36,161 nt of DNA from Actinomycetes bacterium (lineage in GTDB: Bacteria > Actinomycetota > Acidimicrobiia > Acidimicrobiales > RAAP-2): positions 1 through 36,161 of the forward strand of contig JAJZMD010000210.1 of the NCBI GenBank assembly GCA_021803085.1. The letters run 5' to 3'. Below the pieces are notes generated by a model. The model was given only the letters and a program-made list of their open reading frames with translations. It ran no database searches and was not told the origin of the DNA. The position numbers and the translations under genes were made by a program. Below, in pieces: positions 2,540-12,278 of the stretch; within the stretch, counting starts at the first letter, position 1; each line of letters begins with the position of its first letter.

Positions 2540-4365
2540 CGGGGAGCTGATCCGGTGCGCACCGCGGGCGGTCGCTCGGCAATCCGTGTGCCCCGCTGCG
2601 AGCCGTCGGCGACCTCGCTCGCGCCCGCTCGTCCGTTCCGGGCGAGCGCTGGCTGAGGCTCGAGCCACGCGGGTCGCAGCGGGACCGCGCTCGGAGCCGG
2701 CAACGCGACCATGGACGGCCTGCGCGCCTCGACGACGACGAAGAAGAAGAGCAGCGCGATGCACACGCTCCCGCCGATCGCCGCGCCCAGCAGCCCGACC
2801 GGCGAAGCCCACTTCCCCGCCAGGAAGTCGATCGGCCCGGTGACGCCGACCGCGTAGCGCCGGAGCGCCCAGAGGAACGCCGCGATCGACGCGACCCCGA
2901 GGCCGGCCGCCACGACGGGGACGATGCGCGCGAAGAGCCACGCGGGCGCGGTCCTGCGCTGGACCAGCGCGGCGGAGACGAGCGGCACGCCGACTGCGAG
3001 AGGAAGCCAGTAGCGCCCCTGCCCGTCGACGGAGCCCGTGCGCAACGCCTCGACGTACGCGAGGGCGAGCGGCACCACGACGACACCGGCGAGGAGCGTG
3101 AGGAGCGTGCCCGCCCGCCAGGCACCGGCACGCCACACCGCCAGCACCAGCAGGAGGCCGACGACCACGAGCCACACCACGTAGGTGAGGAGCGGGGACG
3201 CCGTGTCGTTCCACCCGAAGACCCCCACCATCTGCTGGACCCGGACCCCGTCGTGCGCCAGCACGGTGCCGAGCAGCTGGAGCCGGGACTCGCCGGGCGG
3301 GACGGGGAAACCGGGCACGAGGTCCAAGGCGTGCTCGGCGAAGATCCACCAGAGCGCGAACCCGCCGCAGGCGGCCAGCGGGAGGGCCGACCAGCGGGCG
3401 GCGCGGCTGGCCAGCACGCCGAAGAGCGCGCGACGGCCGCCGAGGACGGCGAGGGCGACGAGGGTGATCGCCACCCACAGCGGGGAGATGGGCCGGGCGA
3501 GCGACAGGAGGCCGGCCGACAGCGCGACCACCGACACGAGACCCGGCGGGGGGCGGTCGGGGTGCTCGAGCACGAGCACGATCCCCGAGGTCCACAGGCA
3601 GATGGCGCTGCAGATCTCGAAGCCGCTCGGGTTGACCATCCCACCGAGGAACCACGCCATCGGGGTGGCAGCCGCCAGCACGCCCACGAGCAGCAGCTTC
3701 CTCCGCGACCACCGCACGACGGCGAGCAGCGCGAGCGCGATCAGCGCCGCGTTCAGAAGCGAGCTCATGATCCGCATCAGGTAGATGCCGGTCTTCGAGA
3801 CGAAGACGAGCGACGGGAGCCCCGTGATCAGGTAGTAGAGCGGCGGGTACCGCCCGACGTAGGTGCCGACGTGCACGATCTTCGTCGACGTCGAGAGGGA
3901 CGGCGCGCACGACGCAGGAACGTCGGGGTGGTACTTGAAGCAGACGGGGTAGCTCATCCCCGAGGCGAAGACCTCCGGCACGTGGACGGCGGTGTACGCG
4001 CTCGCGGCACCGTCGATTGTGAAGCCGACCACCTCCCCGCGCACGGCTGCGGCGGCGGCCACCACCTGAGTGGACTCGTCGGGAGACGCGAAGAGCGGCG
4101 TGGCGAGCGACCAGGCTGCGAAGTTCACGAACGTGAGGACGAGGAAGGCGGCGAAGATCGCACCCGTTCCTCCGAACCTGCCGTTGCGCACGCGCGAGCG
4201 CCACGAGCGCGCCACATCCGCGACACGCGCGAGCGACGCAGCGGAAGCGGGGAATTCAGGACAACCGGGGGACGAAGGACAACCGGGGGACGAAGGACAA
4301 CCGGGGGATGCAGGAGAAACCGGGGACGAAGGGCGCGCAGGGCGCGCGATGGAGGGCGCCTTCAC
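2533..4365 (-). CDS. DUF2142 family polytopic membrane protein
   Basis: About 610 residues with roughly ten to twelve hydrophobic segments. A first helix (IFAAFLVLTFVNFAAWSLA) is followed by the short motif FASPDESTQ, and a large extracytoplasmic loop contains VGRYPPLYYLITGLPS. This acidic first-loop motif plus the YPPLYY element is the pattern of DUF2142 proteins, which are related in layout to GT-C glycosyltransferases and lie in surface-polysaccharide loci. Function is unproven. The first 60 residues are a Ser-Pro-Gly-Cys repeat made by an 18-bp DNA array, so the GTG at 4365 may not be the true start; in-frame GTG codons nearer 4216 and 4192 would start just before the first helix. The C-terminal 60 residues are polar and arginine-rich. 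Confidence 0.75.
   Translation of the reverse strand: MKAPSIARPARPSSPVSPASPGCPSSPGCPSSPGCPEFPASAASLARVADVARSWRSRVRNGRFGGTGAIFAAFLVLTFVNFAAWSLATPLFASPDESTQVVAAAAAVRGEVVGFTIDGAASAYTAVHVPEVFASGMSYPVCFKYHPDVPASCAPSLSTSTKIVHVGTYVGRYPPLYYLITGLPSLVFVSKTGIYLMRIMSSLLNAALIALALLAVVRWSRRKLLLVGVLAAATPMAWFLGGMVNPSGFEICSAICLWTSGIVLVLEHPDRPPPGLVSVVALSAGLLSLARPISPLWVAITLVALAVLGGRRALFGVLASRAARWSALPLAACGGFALWWIFAEHALDLVPGFPVPPGESRLQLLGTVLAHDGVRVQQMVGVFGWNDTASPLLTYVVWLVVVGLLLVLAVWRAGAWRAGTLLTLLAGVVVVPLALAYVEALRTGSVDGQGRYWLPLAVGVPLVSAALVQRRTAPAWLFARIVPVVAAGLGVASIAAFLWALRRYAVGVTGPIDFLAGKWASPVGLLGAAIGGSVCIALLFFFVVVEARRPSMVALPAPSAVPLRPAWLEPQPALARNGRAGASEVADGSQRGTRIAERPPAVRTGSAPRS
4259..4330. repeat. 18-bp tandem array, four units
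   Basis: Units starting at 4259, 4277, 4295 and 4313; the first two are identical and the later two have diverged. Because 18 is divisible by three, reading on the minus strand gives a repeating SPGCPS peptide at the N-terminus of the DUF2142 frame. It may equally be untranslated leader if that gene starts further in. Confidence 0.9.
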
Positions 4366-4786
4366 CTGCTGGACGTCTCTTGGCGCACAGCGGGACCATA
4401 CATGGCCCGGTCACTCGGGATGCGAGCGTGACGGGAGCAGGGACGCCGACCCGGGCGGTCCGGGACCCCTGCGAGCGGGTCTCGACTCGCTCCGACACGT
4501 AGGGCCCACACCGAGCAGCAAGGGTAGCGAGAAGTACCGGCGCGATCCTGAACGGGTCGTTGCAGGATGCCGACGGATTCGTTACCACCACGGGGGCTGC
4601 AGGTCGCCCCCGTGGAAGGTCACGAGCGGGTCCGCTGACGACGTCCTGCCCGTCGTCAGCACCTACGCGGCTCATCTGCGGGTGCCTCCTCGTCTACGCC
4701 GGCCTGCGGCCCGACCACTCGCACCGTTCATTCCCCTCGGGCGATTTCTGCCTCTCCACCCTGCCGCTGCGGTCCACGATGGAGGC
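4366..4786. other. intergenic region between divergent genes, no gene seen
   Basis: About 420 bp separate the DUF2142 gene (leftward) from the CtpE-type ATPase (rightward). Frames are open here on both strands only because of base composition; their translations have no domain or helix pattern. Promoters for both flanking genes should lie here, but I see no convincing -35/-10 pair. Confidence 0.5.
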
Positions 4787-7165
4787 ATGGACGGCGGCAA
4801 CATCTGGGCGGCGTGGCCCGTCCCCCCGGACGAGGGGACTGCCGATCGGGGGCTCAGCGAACCGGAGGTCGCGGCGCGCATCGCGGCGGGAGCAGTGAAC
4901 ACGACCTCGTCACGAGGAGGGCGGAGCGTCGGGCAGATCCTCCGCGCCAACGTGCTGACCAGGTTCAACGCCATCCTGGGGGCTCTCTTCGTCGTGATCC
5001 TCGTCTTCGGCCCGCTTCAGGACGCGCTCTTCGGCGTCGTCCTGGCCGTGAACACCCTCATCGGCATCGCCCAGGAGCTGCGGGCGAAGAGAACGCTCGA
5101 TCACCTCGCCCTGCTCACGGCTCCGCGTGCCCACGCCATCCGCGAGGGCGAGCGCCTCGACATCCGGGTCGAGGACGTGGTCGTCGACGACGTCCTGGAG
5201 CTGCGCCCGGGGGACCAGATCCCCGCAGACGGAGCCGTCCTCAGGGCTGACGGCCTCGAGGTCGACGAGTCGCTCGTGAGCGGGGAGTCGATGCCGGTGG
5301 AGAAGCACCCTGAGGACCCCCTCCGCTCCGGCAGCGCGGTGCTCGCAGGCTCTGGCACCATGCGGGTCGAGCGGGTCGGCCCCGAGGCGTTCGCCCAGCG
5401 CCTGGAGCTGGACGCTCGCCGGTTCGACCTCGTCCGGTCGGACTTGCGCTCGGGCGTCAACCGCATCCTCCAGGTGGTGAGCTGGCTGATGGTGCCCCTC
5501 GGCGCGCTGCTCGTGACGAGCCAGGTCGTCCGATCGGGCCAGACGCTGGGCGACGCGGTACGGGGGAGCGTGGCCGGCATCGGGGCGATGGTCCCCGAGG
5601 GCCTCGTGCTGCTCGCGACCATCGCCTTCGCCGTCGGAGCCGTCCGGCTCGCCCGGCGGCGCGTGCTCGTCCAGGAGCTGGCCGCGATCGAGGGTCTCGC
5701 CCGGGTCGACGTGCTGTGCATCGACAAGACGGGCACGCTGACCGAACCGGGACTGGAGCTCGGAGAGGTCACCGCCGTCGGTGACGCACCCGCCCGGGAC
5801 GCGCTCGGCGCCATCGCGGCGCAGACCCAAGGCCCGAACGCGACCATGCTTGCCGCACGCGCCGCGCCGGCTCCGCTCGGCTGGGAACCGGTCCGATCCT
5901 CCCCCTTCTCGTCGCAGCGCCGGTGGAGCGCGATGGAGTTCGCAGGTCGGGGGACGTGGGTGATCGGATCGCCGGAGGTGGTGATGCCGGCGCTCGAGGC
6001 GCCCTTCGCGCGCGAGGTGAACGAGAGGGCCGCACGCGGGGGCCGGGTGCTGCTGGTCGCGCGCTCGGACGAGCACCTGCGCCCGGGGACCCTGCCGGCT
6101 CGGCTCCGGTGCGCCGGTTGGGCCGTGTACGAAGAGCGCCTCCGTCCCGACGCCCCCCAGACCATCGACTACCTCCGGAGCCAGGGGGTGCGGGTGCTCG
6201 TGCTGTCAGGGGACGATCCCCGGACGGTGGCCGCGGTCGCGCGGAGGGCGGGGATCCCGGGCGCCGACCGTCCTCTCCACGCCGCATCGCTCCCGGCCGA
6301 CCAGGCTGCCCTCGCGACGGCCCTCCAGGAGGTGGGGGTCGTCGGGCGGGTCGAGCCGCACCGAAAGCGCGACGTCGTGCTCGCCCTGCAAGGTCAAGGC
6401 CACGTGGTGGCCATGACGGGCGACGGGGTGAACGACCTCCCTGCGCTCAAGGCCGCAGATCTCGGGATCGCCATCGGCACCGGCAGCCCGGCGGCGCGCG
6501 CCGTCGGCAGGGTCGTGCTCCTCGACGGCTCCTTCGCCGTGATCCCCCAGATCCTGGCGGAAGGGCGCCGGGTGATCGCGAACATCCAGCGGGTCGCTCG
6601 CCTCTTCGTCACGAAGACCGTCTACGCCACGGTGCTGGCGGCGGTGACGGGGATCTCGGCGATCCCCTACCCGTTCTTCCCTCGCCACCTCACGCTCGTC
6701 AGCTCGCTGACCATCGGCGTGCCCGGCTTCTTCCTCGCGTTGGCACCGGGTGCGCCTCGGGCTCAGCCGGGCTTCGTCGGACGCGTCCTGCGCGTCGCTG
6801 TTCCCTCCGGCGTCGTGGCCGCCTCGTCGGCGCTGGCGGCGTACCTGGTCACCCGCAGCCAGGTCGGAGCGACGGAGCTTTCCGCCCGCACCGCAGCGAC
6901 CGGGGTGCTCCTCGTCGTCGGCCTCGGCGTGCTGGTCCTCGTGTCCAAGCCCCTGACCGTCGGACGGGTCCTCGTCGCCGTCGGCATGGCGGCGGCAGCC
7001 GTGCTGGCTTGGGTGGTGCCTGTGAGCAGGCACCTCTTCGGGCTGTACGCGCCACCGGCGACGTTGACGTTGGCGAGCGCGGCGATCGCGGCCGGCGGCC
7101 TCGTCGTGCTCTCGGCTGCCGTCCGAGTCATCCGCCCGGACCGACGGGCTCCGTCGAAGGTGTGA
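4787..7165 (+). CDS. CtpE-like P-type cation ATPase
   Basis: 792 residues from the ATG at 4787, close to the roughly 800 of mycobacterial CtpE. The longer open frame upstream has no similarity. Hallmarks in order are the actuator-domain loop LVSGES, helix-4 motif VPEGL near 270, the phosphorylation site DKTGTLT (Asp 313), the hinge TGDGVND near 546 and paired C-terminal helices. The N-terminus (RANVLTRFNAILGALF) and the VQELAAIEGLARVDVLCIDK block match CtpE closely. CtpE is described in mycobacteria as a calcium-uptake pump, so Ca2+ or a similar cation is the best guess. Metal-binding N-terminal domains and CPx motifs are absent, which argues against a heavy-metal pump. GGAGG lies only one base before the ATG, so the start is a little uncertain. 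Its 3' end overlaps the convergent P1B ATPase by 38 bp. Confidence 0.9.
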   Translation: MDGGNIWAAWPVPPDEGTADRGLSEPEVAARIAAGAVNTTSSRGGRSVGQILRANVLTRFNAILGALFVVILVFGPLQDALFGVVLAVNTLIGIAQELRAKRTLDHLALLTAPRAHAIREGERLDIRVEDVVVDDVLELRPGDQIPADGAVLRADGLEVDESLVSGESMPVEKHPEDPLRSGSAVLAGSGTMRVERVGPEAFAQRLELDARRFDLVRSDLRSGVNRILQVVSWLMVPLGALLVTSQVVRSGQTLGDAVRGSVAGIGAMVPEGLVLLATIAFAVGAVRLARRRVLVQELAAIEGLARVDVLCIDKTGTLTEPGLELGEVTAVGDAPARDALGAIAAQTQGPNATMLAARAAPAPLGWEPVRSSPFSSQRRWSAMEFAGRGTWVIGSPEVVMPALEAPFAREVNERAARGGRVLLVARSDEHLRPGTLPARLRCAGWAVYEERLRPDAPQTIDYLRSQGVRVLVLSGDDPRTVAAVARRAGIPGADRPLHAASLPADQAALATALQEVGVVGRVEPHRKRDVVLALQGQGHVVAMTGDGVNDLPALKAADLGIAIGTGSPAARAVGRVVLLDGSFAVIPQILAEGRRVIANIQRVARLFVTKTVYATVLAAVTGISAIPYPFFPRHLTLVSSLTIGVPGFFLALAPGAPRAQPGFVGRVLRVAVPSGVVAASSALAAYLVTRSQVGATELSARTAATGVLLVVGLGVLVLVSKPLTVGRVLVAVGMAAAAVLAWVVPVSRHLFGLYAPPATLTLASAAIAAGGLVVLSAAVRVIRPDRRAPSKV

Positions 7166-9470
7166 GGTCGCGGAGCGAGAGGTAGCTCTCCTCTTCTTGG
7201 GCGGTGTGCAGGCGGAGCACCGCCGCGAGGCCGTAGAGCAGGCGACGGAGATCCGTCACGTCGTCGTCGTCCAGGTGCTCTGGGCCGATGTCCTCGAGCA
7301 GGCGGCCCAGCCGCCGGACCTCGTGGGCGATCTCGGCGTGCGCCCTGCTCATCGGGCCGGTGGGGTTGGCACCTCCGATCGCTCGGTCCAGCGAGGGGTA
7401 CAGCTCGCGGTCTTCGGCGGTCTCGTGGGGCAGCACGAAGTCCACCAGCTGGCGATGAAGGTCACGGAGCTCGCGCAGGGCCTCGCCCGCCTCGACGGTG
7501 CCCAGGTGGTCGGCCACCACACGCGCTCGGTCTGCCACGGCCACGACGTCGCCGTGCTCGTCGTGGAACTGCTGCGCCAGCTCGAGACCTGCGGCATCGA
7601 GCACGACGGTCGCCCTCGTCGGTCGCAGGGCTCGCAACGCGTTGAAGATCACCGCGACGTCGATCCCTTCCTGCAGCAGCGCACCCCACACCGGCGGGAG
7701 CCCACCCATCGCCGCCACCCCCATCGCTGCGAACGACAACGCCATGCCGGCGACGACGCTCTGCAAGGCGATCCGTCTGGTCCGCAGTGCGATCACCCGG
7801 CCTTCTGCGAGCCGGTCGAGCCGGTCGACGCTCAGCACCACGTCTGCCACCTGGCTCGACGCGGTGGCTCCCCTGGCTCCCATCGCGACGCCGACGTCCG
7901 CGGCCGCGAGCGCGGGGGCGTCGTTGACCCCGTCCCCCACCATGATGGTCGGCGCCCGGCCCCGCTCGGCCTCCACCACATCGAGCTTGTCCGCCGGCGA
8001 CTGCTCGGCCTCGACGCCGTCGAGACCGAGGACCAGTCCCACGGACTCGGCCACCTCGGCCCGGTCGCCGGTCACCATGACCAGACGGTCGATCCCGGCG
8101 CGCCGGAGGGCCCGTATCGTGCGCGGGGCGTCGGGCCGGATCGGGTCCTCGAACAGGAGCACGGCGGCGGGCCTCCCGTCGATCGACACGGCGACGGTGA
8201 GCGAACCGTCCAGCCGCGCGGTGCGCTGCGCCCGCTTGGCCCACGGCGGGGTCGAGTCGAAGCCCGCCCACCGGGCCGATCCGACGGCAACCCGGCGGCC
8301 GGCGACCAGCCCCCGGATCCCCTCACCGGGAACCTCGACGACCCCTTCGGGGCGATCGAGGACACAGCCGACCTCGAGCGCCTTGCGCACGAGGGCGCCG
8401 GCGAGCACGTGGGGCGAGTACTGGTCGAGCGACGCGGCGGCGCAGAGCGCCTCGGCGACGCTGACCCCCTCCGCCGTGGCCACCGACGCGAGCCTCGGCC
8501 GCCCTTCGGTCAACGTGCCCGTCTTGTCGAAGAGCAGGGTGGTCGACCGGGCGAGGCGCTCGATGACATCGCCGCCCTTCACGACCATGCCACGCCTCGC
8601 AAGGAGGGACAGCCCTGCCACGAAGGCTGCAGGCGCAGCCAAGATGAGCGGGCAGGGCGTGGCGACGACGAGCACGGCGACGGTCCGGGCGGCGCCCCCC
8701 ACGATCCACGCTGCCGCAGCGACCCCCGCCGTCACGCCGAGGAATCCGACCGCGTAGCGGTCCGCCAGCTGGACGAACCGGGGTCGTGACGACTCGGCGG
8801 CACCGACCAGGCGGACGATGCTCTCATACGTGCTCTCGTCCGACGTCGCCGTAGCTCGCATGTCGAAGGGAGCGCCGACGTTCAGCGCGCCGCTGCGGAC
8901 CTCGTCGGCCGCCTCACGGGGGACGGGCAGCGCCTCCCCGGTCAGCGTCGACTCGTCGAGGACTGCAGGGGCGGTGAGGCGGCCGTCGACCGGCACGAGC
9001 TCGCCGGTCGCGACCATGAGCAGGTCGCCGGGGCTCACCTCGCGCAGCGACACGGTCTCGAGCGAGCCGTTCGTGTACCGGTGAGCCACCGCTGGTGCAC
9101 GCTCGAGAAGTGCGTGCAGAGCCCGCCGTGCCCGGCCCGCGGACCAGCTCTCGAGGGCTCGCCCGGTCATGAGCATCGCCGCGATCACCGCGGCTGCCAG
9201 CTCCTGCCCGATGGCGAGCGCGCCCACGATGGCGATCAACGCGATGAAGTCGACCCCGAACCGCTTGTGGAGGATGCCGTCGACCAGCGTCCACGACGAG
9301 TACAGGGCTCCGAGGGCGCCCGTCGCCTCCCATGCGACGCCCGCCGATCCGGGCGTGCCGAGGAGCTCGAAGAGCCCCCCGAGGGCGAGGCCGAGGAGCA
9401 CCACCCCGAGCATCCCGGCGGGGAGGTGACGGGCGAGCGTCAGGCGTCCGTCGGAAGGTGCGGGTTCCAC
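7128..9470 (-). CDS. P1B-5-type metal ATPase with C-terminal hemerythrin-like domain
   Basis: 780 residues. The pump core shows TGEA in the actuator domain (residues 177-180), the helix motif TPCPLI (271-276), phospho-acceptor DKTGTLT (Asp 315), an SPHVLA motif in place of the usual HP locus (352-357), GDGVND (512-517) and QEGID in the last helix (600-604). TPCP with QEGxD is the pattern of subgroup P1B-5, whose members have been linked to Ni/Fe/Co export. Residues about 650-770 form a hemerythrin-like four-helix domain with candidate di-iron ligands H655, H672, H682, E683, H711, H716, H755 and E759/E760. A P1B-5 pump with such a tail is known from Acidothermus, so this is an established if uncommon architecture. 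The likely job is export of a transition metal with iron or oxygen sensing in the tail. It converges on the CtpE-like gene. Confidence 0.92.
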   Translation of the reverse strand: MEPAPSDGRLTLARHLPAGMLGVVLLGLALGGLFELLGTPGSAGVAWEATGALGALYSSWTLVDGILHKRFGVDFIALIAIVGALAIGQELAAAVIAAMLMTGRALESWSAGRARRALHALLERAPAVAHRYTNGSLETVSLREVSPGDLLMVATGELVPVDGRLTAPAVLDESTLTGEALPVPREAADEVRSGALNVGAPFDMRATATSDESTYESIVRLVGAAESSRPRFVQLADRYAVGFLGVTAGVAAAAWIVGGAARTVAVLVVATPCPLILAAPAAFVAGLSLLARRGMVVKGGDVIERLARSTTLLFDKTGTLTEGRPRLASVATAEGVSVAEALCAAASLDQYSPHVLAGALVRKALEVGCVLDRPEGVVEVPGEGIRGLVAGRRVAVGSARWAGFDSTPPWAKRAQRTARLDGSLTVAVSIDGRPAAVLLFEDPIRPDAPRTIRALRRAGIDRLVMVTGDRAEVAESVGLVLGLDGVEAEQSPADKLDVVEAERGRAPTIMVGDGVNDAPALAAADVGVAMGARGATASSQVADVVLSVDRLDRLAEGRVIALRTRRIALQSVVAGMALSFAAMGVAAMGGLPPVWGALLQEGIDVAVIFNALRALRPTRATVVLDAAGLELAQQFHDEHGDVVAVADRARVVADHLGTVEAGEALRELRDLHRQLVDFVLPHETAEDRELYPSLDRAIGGANPTGPMSRAHAEIAHEVRRLGRLLEDIGPEHLDDDDVTDLRRLLYGLAAVLRLHTAQEEESYLSLRDLTPSTEPVGPGG

Positions 9471-9692: not shown

Positions 9693-10091
9693 GTGGTCGG
9701 CTTCGACGGCTCCGAGGACAGTCGGAGGGCTCTCGAGTGGGCGGCCGCGGAGTGCGAGCTCCGGAAGGCCAAGCTGGTCGTGCTGCACGCGGACCGCTGG
9801 TCGCCCGTCGCCTTGGAGCTGCCGGCCTTCGAGCACGAGGTGGACGCAGAAGAGGGCGTGCTCGACGAGGGGGTCCACTGGGCGGTGAGTGAGCACCCTT
9901 CGCTGGACGTGAGCGGGCGCCGAGTGCCTCCACCGGCAGGCGAGTCGCTCGTCGCGGCCAGCAGGGATGCATTGCTCCTGGTCGTCGGCTCACGCGGGCT
10001 CGGGCACCTGCGCCAGATGCTCGTCGGATCGGTCAGCCGCTACTGCGTCGAGCACGCAACGTGCCCGGTGGTCGTCCTGCGGGCCACTTGA
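9693..10091 (+). CDS. universal stress protein (UspA family)
   Basis: A single Usp domain. Strand 1 and the first turn read VVVGFDGSEDSRRALEWAA, and the C-terminal ATP-binding motif GSRGLGHLRQMLVGSVS fits G-2x-G-9x-G-S/T. At 132 residues from GTG 9693 it is slightly shorter than a typical 140-150-residue Usp and begins in the middle of strand 1. There is no ATG, GTG or TTG between the upstream stop (9615) and 9693. An ATC at 9660 preceded by AAGGGGGG would give a normal N-terminus (see findings). The family binds ATP and supports survival under stress or hypoxia. It lies close to two ion pumps but is divergent from the metal pump. Confidence 0.85.
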   Translation: MVGFDGSEDSRRALEWAAAECELRKAKLVVLHADRWSPVALELPAFEHEVDAEEGVLDEGVHWAVSEHPSLDVSGRRVPPPAGESLVAASRDALLLVVGSRGLGHLRQMLVGSVSRYCVEHATCPVVVLRAT

Positions 10092-10173
10092 ATCCTCTTC
10101 GGCCGGCCGGTGCCCGCGACCCTCGTATTCTCGGAGATCGAGGCGAGGAGGTCGCCGAACTACTGTCGGGAGG

Positions 10174-10788
10174 GTGCGACGCAGTGTCCTGGCCGCAGTC
10201 GTCCTCGCTTCCGTCGCGATCGCCGTCACGGACTTGTCCGGCGAAGCCCTCGGGTCACCCAGTCCACGAGCGCCCACACCTCGTGGGCTCGAGCGGGCCA
10301 GTGACCACTACACGGTCCGCGGAGAGGTCACCCGCTTCGACGGGCACGGACCAGCCGGATCGAAGCTCACGGTCGTCAGCGCCCTGGGAGCCGACCACGT
10401 GACGTGCATCAAGCTCGTCATCACAGATCGTCCTCGTGTCCGGTCTCGTTCGGTTCCCGGTGTGTGCTCCACCACCACCCGGAAAGGGCGCATCTTCTAC
10501 GCCTTCTGGACATACCGTTGGAAGAGCCCCTCGGGTCGCTCCTACCTCGTCTACTTCGGCGACGCCTCGACAACGGCGGAGAGACTTGTCCAGACGAAGA
10601 CCGCGCCTGCTTCCGTCGTCGTGACCGCGTCGGCGGGAAGCACGCCAGCGGGCCGGCATCTCGCATCCGTGACGCTGCAGCGGGGCTGGTTCGCGATCGG
10701 GTTCACCATGCCACGCCATGGCAAGTACTCGGTGATCGCCGAGACGAGATCCGGGCACCCGCTCGCGGTTCTCGCGTCGCACCGCTAG
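10174..10788 (+). CDS. predicted secreted protein, unknown family
   Basis: About 204 residues from the GTG at 10174, the codon that directly precedes a positively charged, hydrophobic signal sequence (RRSVLAAVVLASVAIAV). Likely signal-peptidase cleavage is around ALG-SPS. The mature part is soluble, basic and rich in Ser/Thr and aromatic strands (YTVRGEVTRF, SYLVYFGD, GKYSVIAET), suggesting a small beta fold; a Cys pair (TCIKLV, PGVCST) could form a disulfide. The frame is open upstream to 9967 but that part is antisense-like. GGGAGG abuts the GTG, so the start is uncertain. I do not recognise the family. Confidence 0.6.
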   Translation: MRRSVLAAVVLASVAIAVTDLSGEALGSPSPRAPTPRGLERASDHYTVRGEVTRFDGHGPAGSKLTVVSALGADHVTCIKLVITDRPRVRSRSVPGVCSTTTRKGRIFYAFWTYRWKSPSGRSYLVYFGDASTTAERLVQTKTAPASVVVTASAGSTPAGRHLASVTLQRGWFAIGFTMPRHGKYSVIAETRSGHPLAVLASHR

Positions 10789-10830
10789 CGCGAGCCGACG
10801 TGCTCGCTTCCCGGCCTGCCTGGGCGTGAT

Positions 10831-10899
10831 CGCCGTGGCTGCGCCGTGGCGTGCGCCGTGGCTGCGCCGTGGCGTGCGCCGTGGCTGCGCCGTGGCGTG
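10831..10899. repeat. 23-bp perfect tandem array, three units
   Basis: Three identical 23-bp units at 10831, 10854 and 10877. Each consists of two related halves built on GCCGTGGCTGC and GCCGTGGCGTGC. The array lies between two genes for secreted proteins, 47 bp before the start chosen for the downstream one. Confidence 0.95.
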
Positions 10900-10946
10900 C
10901 GAGCCGTTCTCCAGCCGAGGGCGTCGACTACGATCGCGAGGTGGTC

Positions 10947-12254
10947 ATGTGCATGGTGATGCGCATGTTTCGGGTACGTGGCGGCGCGTGGAGCCAACCG
11001 TTGCGCATGCTCCGCGCGCTCGGGGTGCCGGTAGCGATCGCAGTCTCGTGCTGCCCTGCGGCAGCGTCCGGCGCCTCGACCAGTCTGCGGAGCACCACGA
11101 CCGCTGCCGCCTCCGCGTACCTCGCCGGTCCGAGCACCGCGGCGCTTCGCTCGCCGAGCAAGAGCTCGTGGACGATCACCGCGAGCAAGAACCCCGGAAC
11201 GAGCACGGACGACCTGCTCGCCGTCTCCTGCACGAACGCCACCTTCTGCATGGCAGCGGGCGCGTACTCGAACACCGCGTTGCTGGCCGACCAGAGCACG
11301 CTCGTGGAGAGGTGGAACGGGCGCTCGTGGACGGACTCCGCCAGCAGGAACCCTGGGAACAACGGAGACACGCTGGACGGCGTGTCGTGCCCGAGCACGG
11401 CGTTCTGCGCGGCGGTCGGCTCGTACACGAACGGACCCGCCGGCCCGGAACCTCTGGTCGAGGGGTGGAACGGAAGGACCTGGGCCCCCGCACCCGTTCC
11501 GCCTCCTCCAGGATCGCGCTACGGAAGCTCCCTGAACGCCGTCTCGTGCACCAGTGCTGCCTTCTGCATGGCGGTGGGCGCCTATGCCTATGCCGCCGAT
11601 CACAACAACACGCTCGCCGAAGAGTGGAACGGCAAGACGTGGGACATCGTGCCCAGCCCCAGCCCCGAGATCACCAACGACTTGCTCACCGTCTCCTGCA
11701 CGAGTGCTGCCTTCTGCATGGCGGTCGGGTCCTATGTGATGGTCTCGGGCAGGCCGGGCACTCTGGTGGAAGAGTGGGACGGAAGGACCTGGGCAGCCGT
11801 GCCCATCGCTGTCCCTGGGAGCACCAGCAACGAGCTGCGCAGCATCTCGTGCAGGAGCGCCAGCTTCTGCATGGTGGCAGGCACGTACTCGAACAGCACG
11901 GCGCTGAGCGACCAGAGCACGCTCGTCGAAGCGTGGAACGGACGGTCGTGGTCGGTGGTGGCGAGCCGCAGCCCCGGAACGGCCGGCAACACACTGGACG
12001 GCATCTCGTGCGCGAGCACGAGGTCGTGCGTCGCGGTCGGCTCGTATGCGGACGGATCCGGCTACGCAGAAACGCTCGTCGAGAAGTGGAGCGGCAGGAT
12101 CTGGGCGGTTCTCCCCAGCCCGAACCCGAAGGTGGCGCCCTACGGGAGCTTCCTGAGCTCTGCCGCCTGTGCGGGTCCGAGCTTCTGCATGGCGGCCGGC
12201 GCCTCGTCCTACGCCCCCAATCACGACAAGACGCTCGTCGAGAAGACCGGGTAG
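10947..12254 (+). CDS. secreted seven-repeat (WNG/SC) propeller-like protein
   Basis: 435 residues from ATG 10947 (GAGGTGG just upstream; several nearby Met codons are possible starts). A signal peptide (LRALGVPVAIAVSCCPAAASGA) precedes seven tandem repeats of about 50 residues. Each repeat runs: aromatic start S/T-W, a Ser/Pro/Gly-rich turn, then L-x-x-(V/I)SC-x5-C-x-AVG-x-Y, and an ending TLVE-x-WNGR. The paired cysteines C-x5-C occur in all seven copies, so each could form a disulfide. Seven repeats of this length fit a seven-bladed beta-propeller; that is inference. Related uncharacterised proteins with SC...C.AVG repeats are familiar from actinobacterial genomes. Likely role is extracytoplasmic binding or scaffolding; no catalytic motif is visible. 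Confidence 0.8.
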   Translation: MCMVMRMFRVRGGAWSQPLRMLRALGVPVAIAVSCCPAAASGASTSLRSTTTAAASAYLAGPSTAALRSPSKSSWTITASKNPGTSTDDLLAVSCTNATFCMAAGAYSNTALLADQSTLVERWNGRSWTDSASRNPGNNGDTLDGVSCPSTAFCAAVGSYTNGPAGPEPLVEGWNGRTWAPAPVPPPPGSRYGSSLNAVSCTSAAFCMAVGAYAYAADHNNTLAEEWNGKTWDIVPSPSPEITNDLLTVSCTSAAFCMAVGSYVMVSGRPGTLVEEWDGRTWAAVPIAVPGSTSNELRSISCRSASFCMVAGTYSNSTALSDQSTLVEAWNGRSWSVVASRSPGTAGNTLDGISCASTRSCVAVGSYADGSGYAETLVEKWSGRIWAVLPSPNPKVAPYGSFLSSAACAGPSFCMAAGASSYAPNHDKTLVEKTG

Positions 12255-12278
12255 GTCCGGGTAGGTCCGGGTAGGACT
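12249..12278. repeat. 10-bp tandem repeat at the stop codon
   Basis: Three units of GGGTAGGTCC (third one diverged) start at 12249, 12259 and 12269. The stop codon of the propeller-like gene (TAG, 12252-12254) is in the first unit, so the array adds spare stop codons without changing the protein. Confidence 0.7.

Follow-up and report, generated by a model that had tools for sequence, protein, structure and literature searches.

The 36,161-nucleotide stretch of DNA analysed here (the window) encodes a protein with seven cysteine-bearing repeats, and the question it raises is whether this protein is a closed propeller in which each blade holds its own disulfide and, if so, what such a protein might do. 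The features of the gene are as follows.

10947-12254, + strand: coding sequence of the seven-repeat protein, 435 aa plus stop
10947-11075, + strand: probable Sec signal peptide from hydropathy, residues 1-43, hydrophobic core about residues 24-34
11076-11165, + strand: Ser/Thr/Ala-rich linker read from the sequence, residues 44-73
11166-11324, + strand: repeat 1, Cys 95/101, 53 aa
11325-11477, + strand: repeat 2, Cys 148/154, 51 aa
11478-11636, + strand: repeat 3, Cys 201/207, 53 aa
11637-11786, + strand: repeat 4, Cys 251/257, 50 aa
11787-11945, + strand: repeat 5, Cys 302/308, 53 aa, resembles repeat 1 (621-nt register)
11946-12098, + strand: repeat 6, Cys 355/361, 51 aa, 58% amino acid identity with repeat 2
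12099-12251, + strand: repeat 7, Cys 408/414, 51 aa, resembles repeat 3, stops past the third strand

In the frame of 10947-12254, the G+C content at codon positions 1, 2 and 3 is 0.53, 0.64 and 0.87, which is the pattern expected of a real gene here, and a GAGG Shine-Dalgarno-like stretch (10938-10941) precedes the ATG with a gap of 5 nt. Two long ORFs overlap the gene in other frames (10785-12224, minus strand, and 10826-12274, plus strand); as homologues match the frame of 10947-12254, these are most likely GC-rich shadows. Judged by hydropathy, residues 1-43 are a probable Sec signal peptide; a weaker reading would place a lipobox at Cys35. The three cysteines that do not belong to repeats (residues 2, 35 and 36) all lie within this signal region. 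At the other end of the gene, GGTAGGTCCG is repeated in tandem about two and a half times (12250-12275); these copies span the stop codon and continue beyond it, and may be a mark of slippage. The upstream neighbour (9967-10788, plus strand) looks exported in its C-terminal two thirds, its true start is probably internal, and it has no match in Pfam. In the same window, a P-type ATPase that carries a C-terminal hemerythrin fusion (7128-9470, minus strand) is convergent with a second P-type ATPase (4070-7165, plus strand).

A sequence-only reading of this DNA had described seven repeats of about 50 residues, each starting with W and containing C-x5-C. This description holds: seven repeats of 50-53 aa occupy 11166-12251, all seven start with W, and all seven contain the cysteine motif, at a spacing of 50-53 residues. 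When the protein was shuffled 20,000 times, the C-x5-C count was at most five in every shuffle, versus seven in the real sequence. The remaining motifs of that reading had to be loosened. The serine before the first cysteine is found in six repeats and is missing from one; AVG-x-Y is complete in four of the seven, with the G kept in all of them and G-x-Y in six; and WNG is found at the end of four repeats, or of six if W-N/D/S-G is allowed, but not of repeat 7, which ends LVEKTG-stop. At the DNA level, repeats 1-3 match repeats 5-7 in a register of 621 nt (73-74% identity over two blocks), and the top inter-repeat protein scores pair repeat 1 with 5 and repeat 2 with 6. Both the register and these scores suggest that duplication of a four-blade block probably gave rise to part of the ring.

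For structure prediction, AlphaFold2 was given a two-row alignment of the window protein and a relative, L003, which is 41% identical. The best model is an all-beta ring with a pTM of 0.81 and a mean pLDDT of 71.5; the mean pLDDT values of the five models were 71.5, 69.6, 36.4, 36.3 and 30.4, the last three being poor. A single-sequence model of L003 alone reached a pLDDT of 37 and was left unused. The top Foldseek match of the best model is YCF48 (5ojr; E 5e-10, TM 0.60 by query and 0.70 by target), and below it rank CylK, GH74 xyloglucanases and kelch domains, with sialidases and a PL25 lyase also among the matches. VIA-align superposes the model on the portion of CylK that lies C-terminal of about residue 250, with Z 34.5-35.0 and rmsd 3.3-3.6 over 342-349 residues and, among the matches listed, on WD40 propellers with Z 28.2-29.2 and rmsd 2.4-3.0 over 275-298 residues. 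A search of the viral library gave 116 matches with E of 0.001 or less, among them many proteins of phages or giant viruses. The predicted fold thus agrees with the seven-bladed propeller that had been proposed, as do the repeat numbers of relatives, and the window protein is most likely a closed seven-bladed beta-propeller with four-stranded blades. Each repeat would provide a C-x5-C hairpin (strands a and b) and then a third strand (TLVEEWNG), while the fourth strand of each blade would be supplied past a tight NG-x-(S/T)-W turn. The N-terminal W strand (SWTIT, at the start of repeat 1) probably closes blade 7, and the lack of WNG in repeat 7 would be expected if that strand completes the ring.

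Ring closure can be approached from the copy number of repeats in relatives, a comparison that the sequence-only reading had suggested. Cys-hairpin units were counted by plain pattern, independently of any profile, in arrays of at least four units whose ORFs do not touch a locus end. Among 73 such arrays, 40 have seven units, 14 have 14 and two have 21, so that 56 of the 73 are multiples of seven. Restricted to arrays of more than seven units, the count is 16 of 27 (nominal P 8e-8 against 1/7, an optimistic value given the relatedness of the arrays), while moduli of 5, 6, 8 and 9 fit 2, 0, 5 and 0 of these 27. In the set fetched mainly for long ORFs, 11 of 18 arrays longer than seven units are multiples of seven. 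This excess lends independent support to closure of the ring by seven units. Seventeen of the 73 arrays are not multiples of seven; as five of them have eight units and the profile count yields nine complete Cys-type proteins with eight, an eight-unit subgroup may exist.

The next point is whether the two cysteines of a repeat behave as a pair. We aligned 639 repeat matches from 86 non-redundant proteins and set aside 18 with a gap at a cysteine column. The 621 scorable repeats contain both cysteines in 505 cases, neither in 116 and a single one in none, which favours the pairing within repeats that had been proposed, with bonds deduced from this co-occurrence. Two of the 18 gapped repeats show the first cysteine only, and both are cut matches: one is truncated by the end of its contig, and the other breaks off ahead of a long insertion, with the second cysteine on the far side. 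The five-residue spacing is kept in 466 of the 505 paired repeats, and out of 999 cysteines inside the repeat regions of Cys-type proteins, a net three fall outside pairs. At the protein level, 65 of the 86 are paired throughout, 18 have no cysteine and three were scored as mixed. Two of these three (L197 and L200) were rejected, because their Cys-less "repeat" is a weak and false match; the one truly mixed protein is L002, with one blade (741-778) devoid of both cysteines among paired blades. As L197 and L200 illustrate, the 116 Cys-less repeats include a few weak matches; 112 of them are in proteins without any pair. If a Cys-paired blade subfamily is proposed as one with the pair in every repeat and never a single cysteine, the window protein shows this in seven of seven repeats.

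In the model, each of the seven blades carries the two cysteines on the corresponding beta-hairpin and always in the same register, the first two residues before the end of its strand and the second one residue past the start of the next (7/7; the two-residue DSSP gap makes the register uncertain). Co-occurrence of the pair and its constant hairpin register fit within-blade disulfides, and a disulfide probably staples the a-b hairpin in every blade. That the pairs would instead bind a metal or carry out redox chemistry is very improbable. All that speaks for this idea is a match to PF14354 (Lar), a family with a cysteine pattern, at 26.9 bits, below the cut-off of 28.6; but the consensus has no His, Asp or third Cys next to the pair, and the cysteine-free sister group has small hydrophobic residues, mostly A/V, at both positions, which favours a packed hairpin over a ligand site. 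Also against it, the organism's own genome encodes VKOR. The VKOR gene is flanked by two DUF929 genes bearing a CPYC motif (L220, contig C295), and the three are a plausible disulfide-forming gene set; a Thioredoxin_4 (DsbA-like) domain was searched for in this genome and not found.

Proteins of this family are common among relatives of the organism. At E 1e-5 or better, homologues were present in 47 of the 61 genomes sampled from the organism's family and in 33 of 118 from its order (own genome included in both), and a nine-row profile matched in at least 28 of 296 genomes, a lower bound since only four candidates were scored per genome. Within the genus, only two of six other genomes gave a match, both weak, and the own genome has one full copy plus a weak second match (L002). 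In one genome (G018), 26 match segments of divergent sequence occupy at least 12 separate places among the rows listed. Five of ten relatives scanned have TIG, Big_7, fn3 or NHL domains above cut-off, and some relatives, as judged by eye, end in LPXTG-like or transmembrane-like tails. In L003 (3580-4320), L006, L008, L010 and many other relatives, the Cys propeller is followed by a second repeat of about 45 residues, GYWLVASDGGIFxFGDAxFxGSMGGxxLNKPIVGMAATPDG, which has no Pfam match in L003 and is perhaps a second propeller-like domain. A "sialidase family protein" in a Legionella longbeachae plasmid record aligns over 79% of the query with 31% identity, so repeats of this type may also exist beyond Actinomycetota.

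With respect to function, the repeat has fixed and variable parts. The a-b hairpin has a C1-C2 distance of 6 in 241 of 252 repeats from 36 relatives, and the c-d hairpin a G-to-next-W distance of 3 in 141 of 148 repeats with both anchors aligned; the b-c and d-a segments vary, with modal shares of 0.37 (n=169) and 0.31 (n=204). Propeller geometry places the a-b and c-d turns together on one face, opposite the b-c and d-a loops. Staples and WNGxxW turns would share one face, and the variable b-c and d-a loops of the other could form a binding surface. We also searched the 36 proteins with exactly seven paired repeats for residues conserved in one blade. To count, a residue had to reach a frequency of 60% in that blade and exceed its all-blade value by more than 20 points, in a column occupied in 60% of the proteins or more. 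By this criterion there were none, a result that argues against a shared active site. Since hairpins are fixed and loops variable, no residue is specific to a blade, and relatives have the domains and tails described, we favour, with a probability of about 0.6, the reading of the window protein as an exported binding scaffold, adhesin- or lectin-like, which would act through its variable face, be secreted or wall-associated, and not be an enzyme.

Many Asp-box propellers are enzymes, and the same ring could be glycosidase- or lyase-like, with active-site residues that differ between paralogues. The GH74 xyloglucanases, sialidases, CylK and PL25 lyase among the Foldseek matches point this way, as does the annotation of the plasmid relative; yet in the 36 seven-repeat relatives no blade column is conserved beyond the all-blade level by the above criterion, and of the 48 columns that are invariant in nine aligned relatives, nearly all belong to the repeat consensus. 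An enzyme is, on this evidence, quite unlikely. Somewhat less so, but still unlikely, is a mainly structural propeller that would serve as a stable spacer or coat, resistant to proteases and acid and with no specific ligand, for which the low conservation of the loops and the fusions to other repeat or Ig-like domains would speak. The 26 divergent segments of G018 suggest diversified roles instead, but the own genome has one full copy. Beyond the preferred binding scaffold, we offer tentatively, and as doubtful, that this is a large disulfide-stapled paralogue family whose staples fix one face of the ring in each blade, leaving the other free to diversify into a bacterial surface repertoire that recognises many different partners, with arrays growing by whole propellers (7, 14 and 21 blades). 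If a disulfide is indeed present in every blade, these proteins would be natural, very stable scaffolds, and the effect of disulfides on propeller folding would have a ready-made test in this family, since there is a sister group that has the same repeat but no cysteines.

That sister group is made up of 18 of the 86 proteins, which come from other Actinomycetota and have WNGxxW repeats that lack cysteine. It shares the repeat profile and layout and differs in having no cysteine at either column, the commonest pairs there being A/V (37) and A/A (20) of 112. Somewhat similar are the WNGSSWTEVNDLNTAR repeat proteins of about 600 aa on IMG/VR viral contigs (L023-L102). They have the same order of W-x-V, A-x-G-G and ESWNGxxW, at 24-34% identity in the best segment, with 9-10 WNGxxW motifs per ORF among the rows listed, but the best ORF of each of the 80 loci contains at most one C-x5-C. 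A search of viral contigs with a Cys-hairpin DNA pattern gave 47 stretches and no ORF with two or more such repeats; the phage records searched held no match to the window protein, and PHROGs yielded one match only (E 0.095).

Kelch kinship was weighed because of these viral-contig relatives. Fold matches to kelch propellers (KLHDC2 and others) reach E about 1e-7, but no Pfam Kelch model matches the window protein at E up to 10, except RAG2 (PF03089; E 0.085), which we take to be kelch-like. Kelch repeats are marked by a GG doublet, which is absent from the window protein, and this kinship was set aside as less well supported than that with Asp-box/YCF48 propellers.

The sequence-only reading had regarded the family as lacking an assigned function; consistent with this, no Pfam or NCBIfam model reaches its cut-off on the window protein, common as the Cys-paired family is among the organism's relatives. 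The candidates on the window protein were rejected: Lar_restr_allev and DUF6087 fall just below cut-off and DUF2510 far below, all on short stretches, and NCBIfam gives sub-threshold matches only (best PorZ, 13.2 bits). In several relatives, DUF6087 or DUF2510 pass the cut-off on short WNGxxW stretches, which we read as chance similarity. By sequence, the protein query finds one irrelevant PDB match (E 1.5) and the nine-row profile none.

The fold class itself (Asp-box/YCF48-like) is well known. YCF48 proteins bind the photosystem II D1 protein. YCF48/Hcf136 (PF14870, PSII_BNR) is the best Foldseek match, but the window protein differs in its Cys pair in every blade and in its lack of an Asp-box, and PF14870 is unlisted for it at E up to 10 (cut-off 27 bits). 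With Asp-box (BNR) propellers it shares the last part of the motif that links strand three to strand four, G-x-(S/T)-W, kept as G-x-(S/T/I)-W in repeats 1-6, but the full motif S/T-x-D/N-x-G-x-T/S-W/F/Y is found in none of the seven repeats, W being present at the D/N position. According to Quistgaard and Thirup (PMC2716378), the D/N position holds no other residue in known structures, and Asp-box propellers have a structurally conserved bottom and a variable top face, the latter being the only one used for function in known structures. The segment lengths of the 36 relatives fit such a contrast, the fixed hairpins probably lying on one face and the variable loops on the opposite one. Within the portions of text available, neither "disulfide" nor "cysteine" occurs in PMC2716378 and PMC9218822, and the open-licence literature, as far as it was accessible, gave no paper on this family or on disulfides in every propeller blade, nor anything on YCF48 in non-photosynthetic bacteria.

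With the motif in 0/7 repeats and the PF14870 model failing, the window protein is not filed under Asp-box or YCF48. Even so, a Cys-paired relative, L173 (nine-row profile E 2.4e-18), matches PF14870 at 44.1 bits versus the cut-off of 27, and its repeats bear both the Cys hairpin and true Asp-boxes; L002 also passes that cut-off (27.6 bits). Because L173 combines the hairpin, the Asp-boxes and the PF14870 match, the window protein, which resembles Asp-box/YCF48 propellers in how it would work, is probably a Cys-paired relative of them by shared descent, and most likely belongs to a large actinobacterial branch of this known propeller class.
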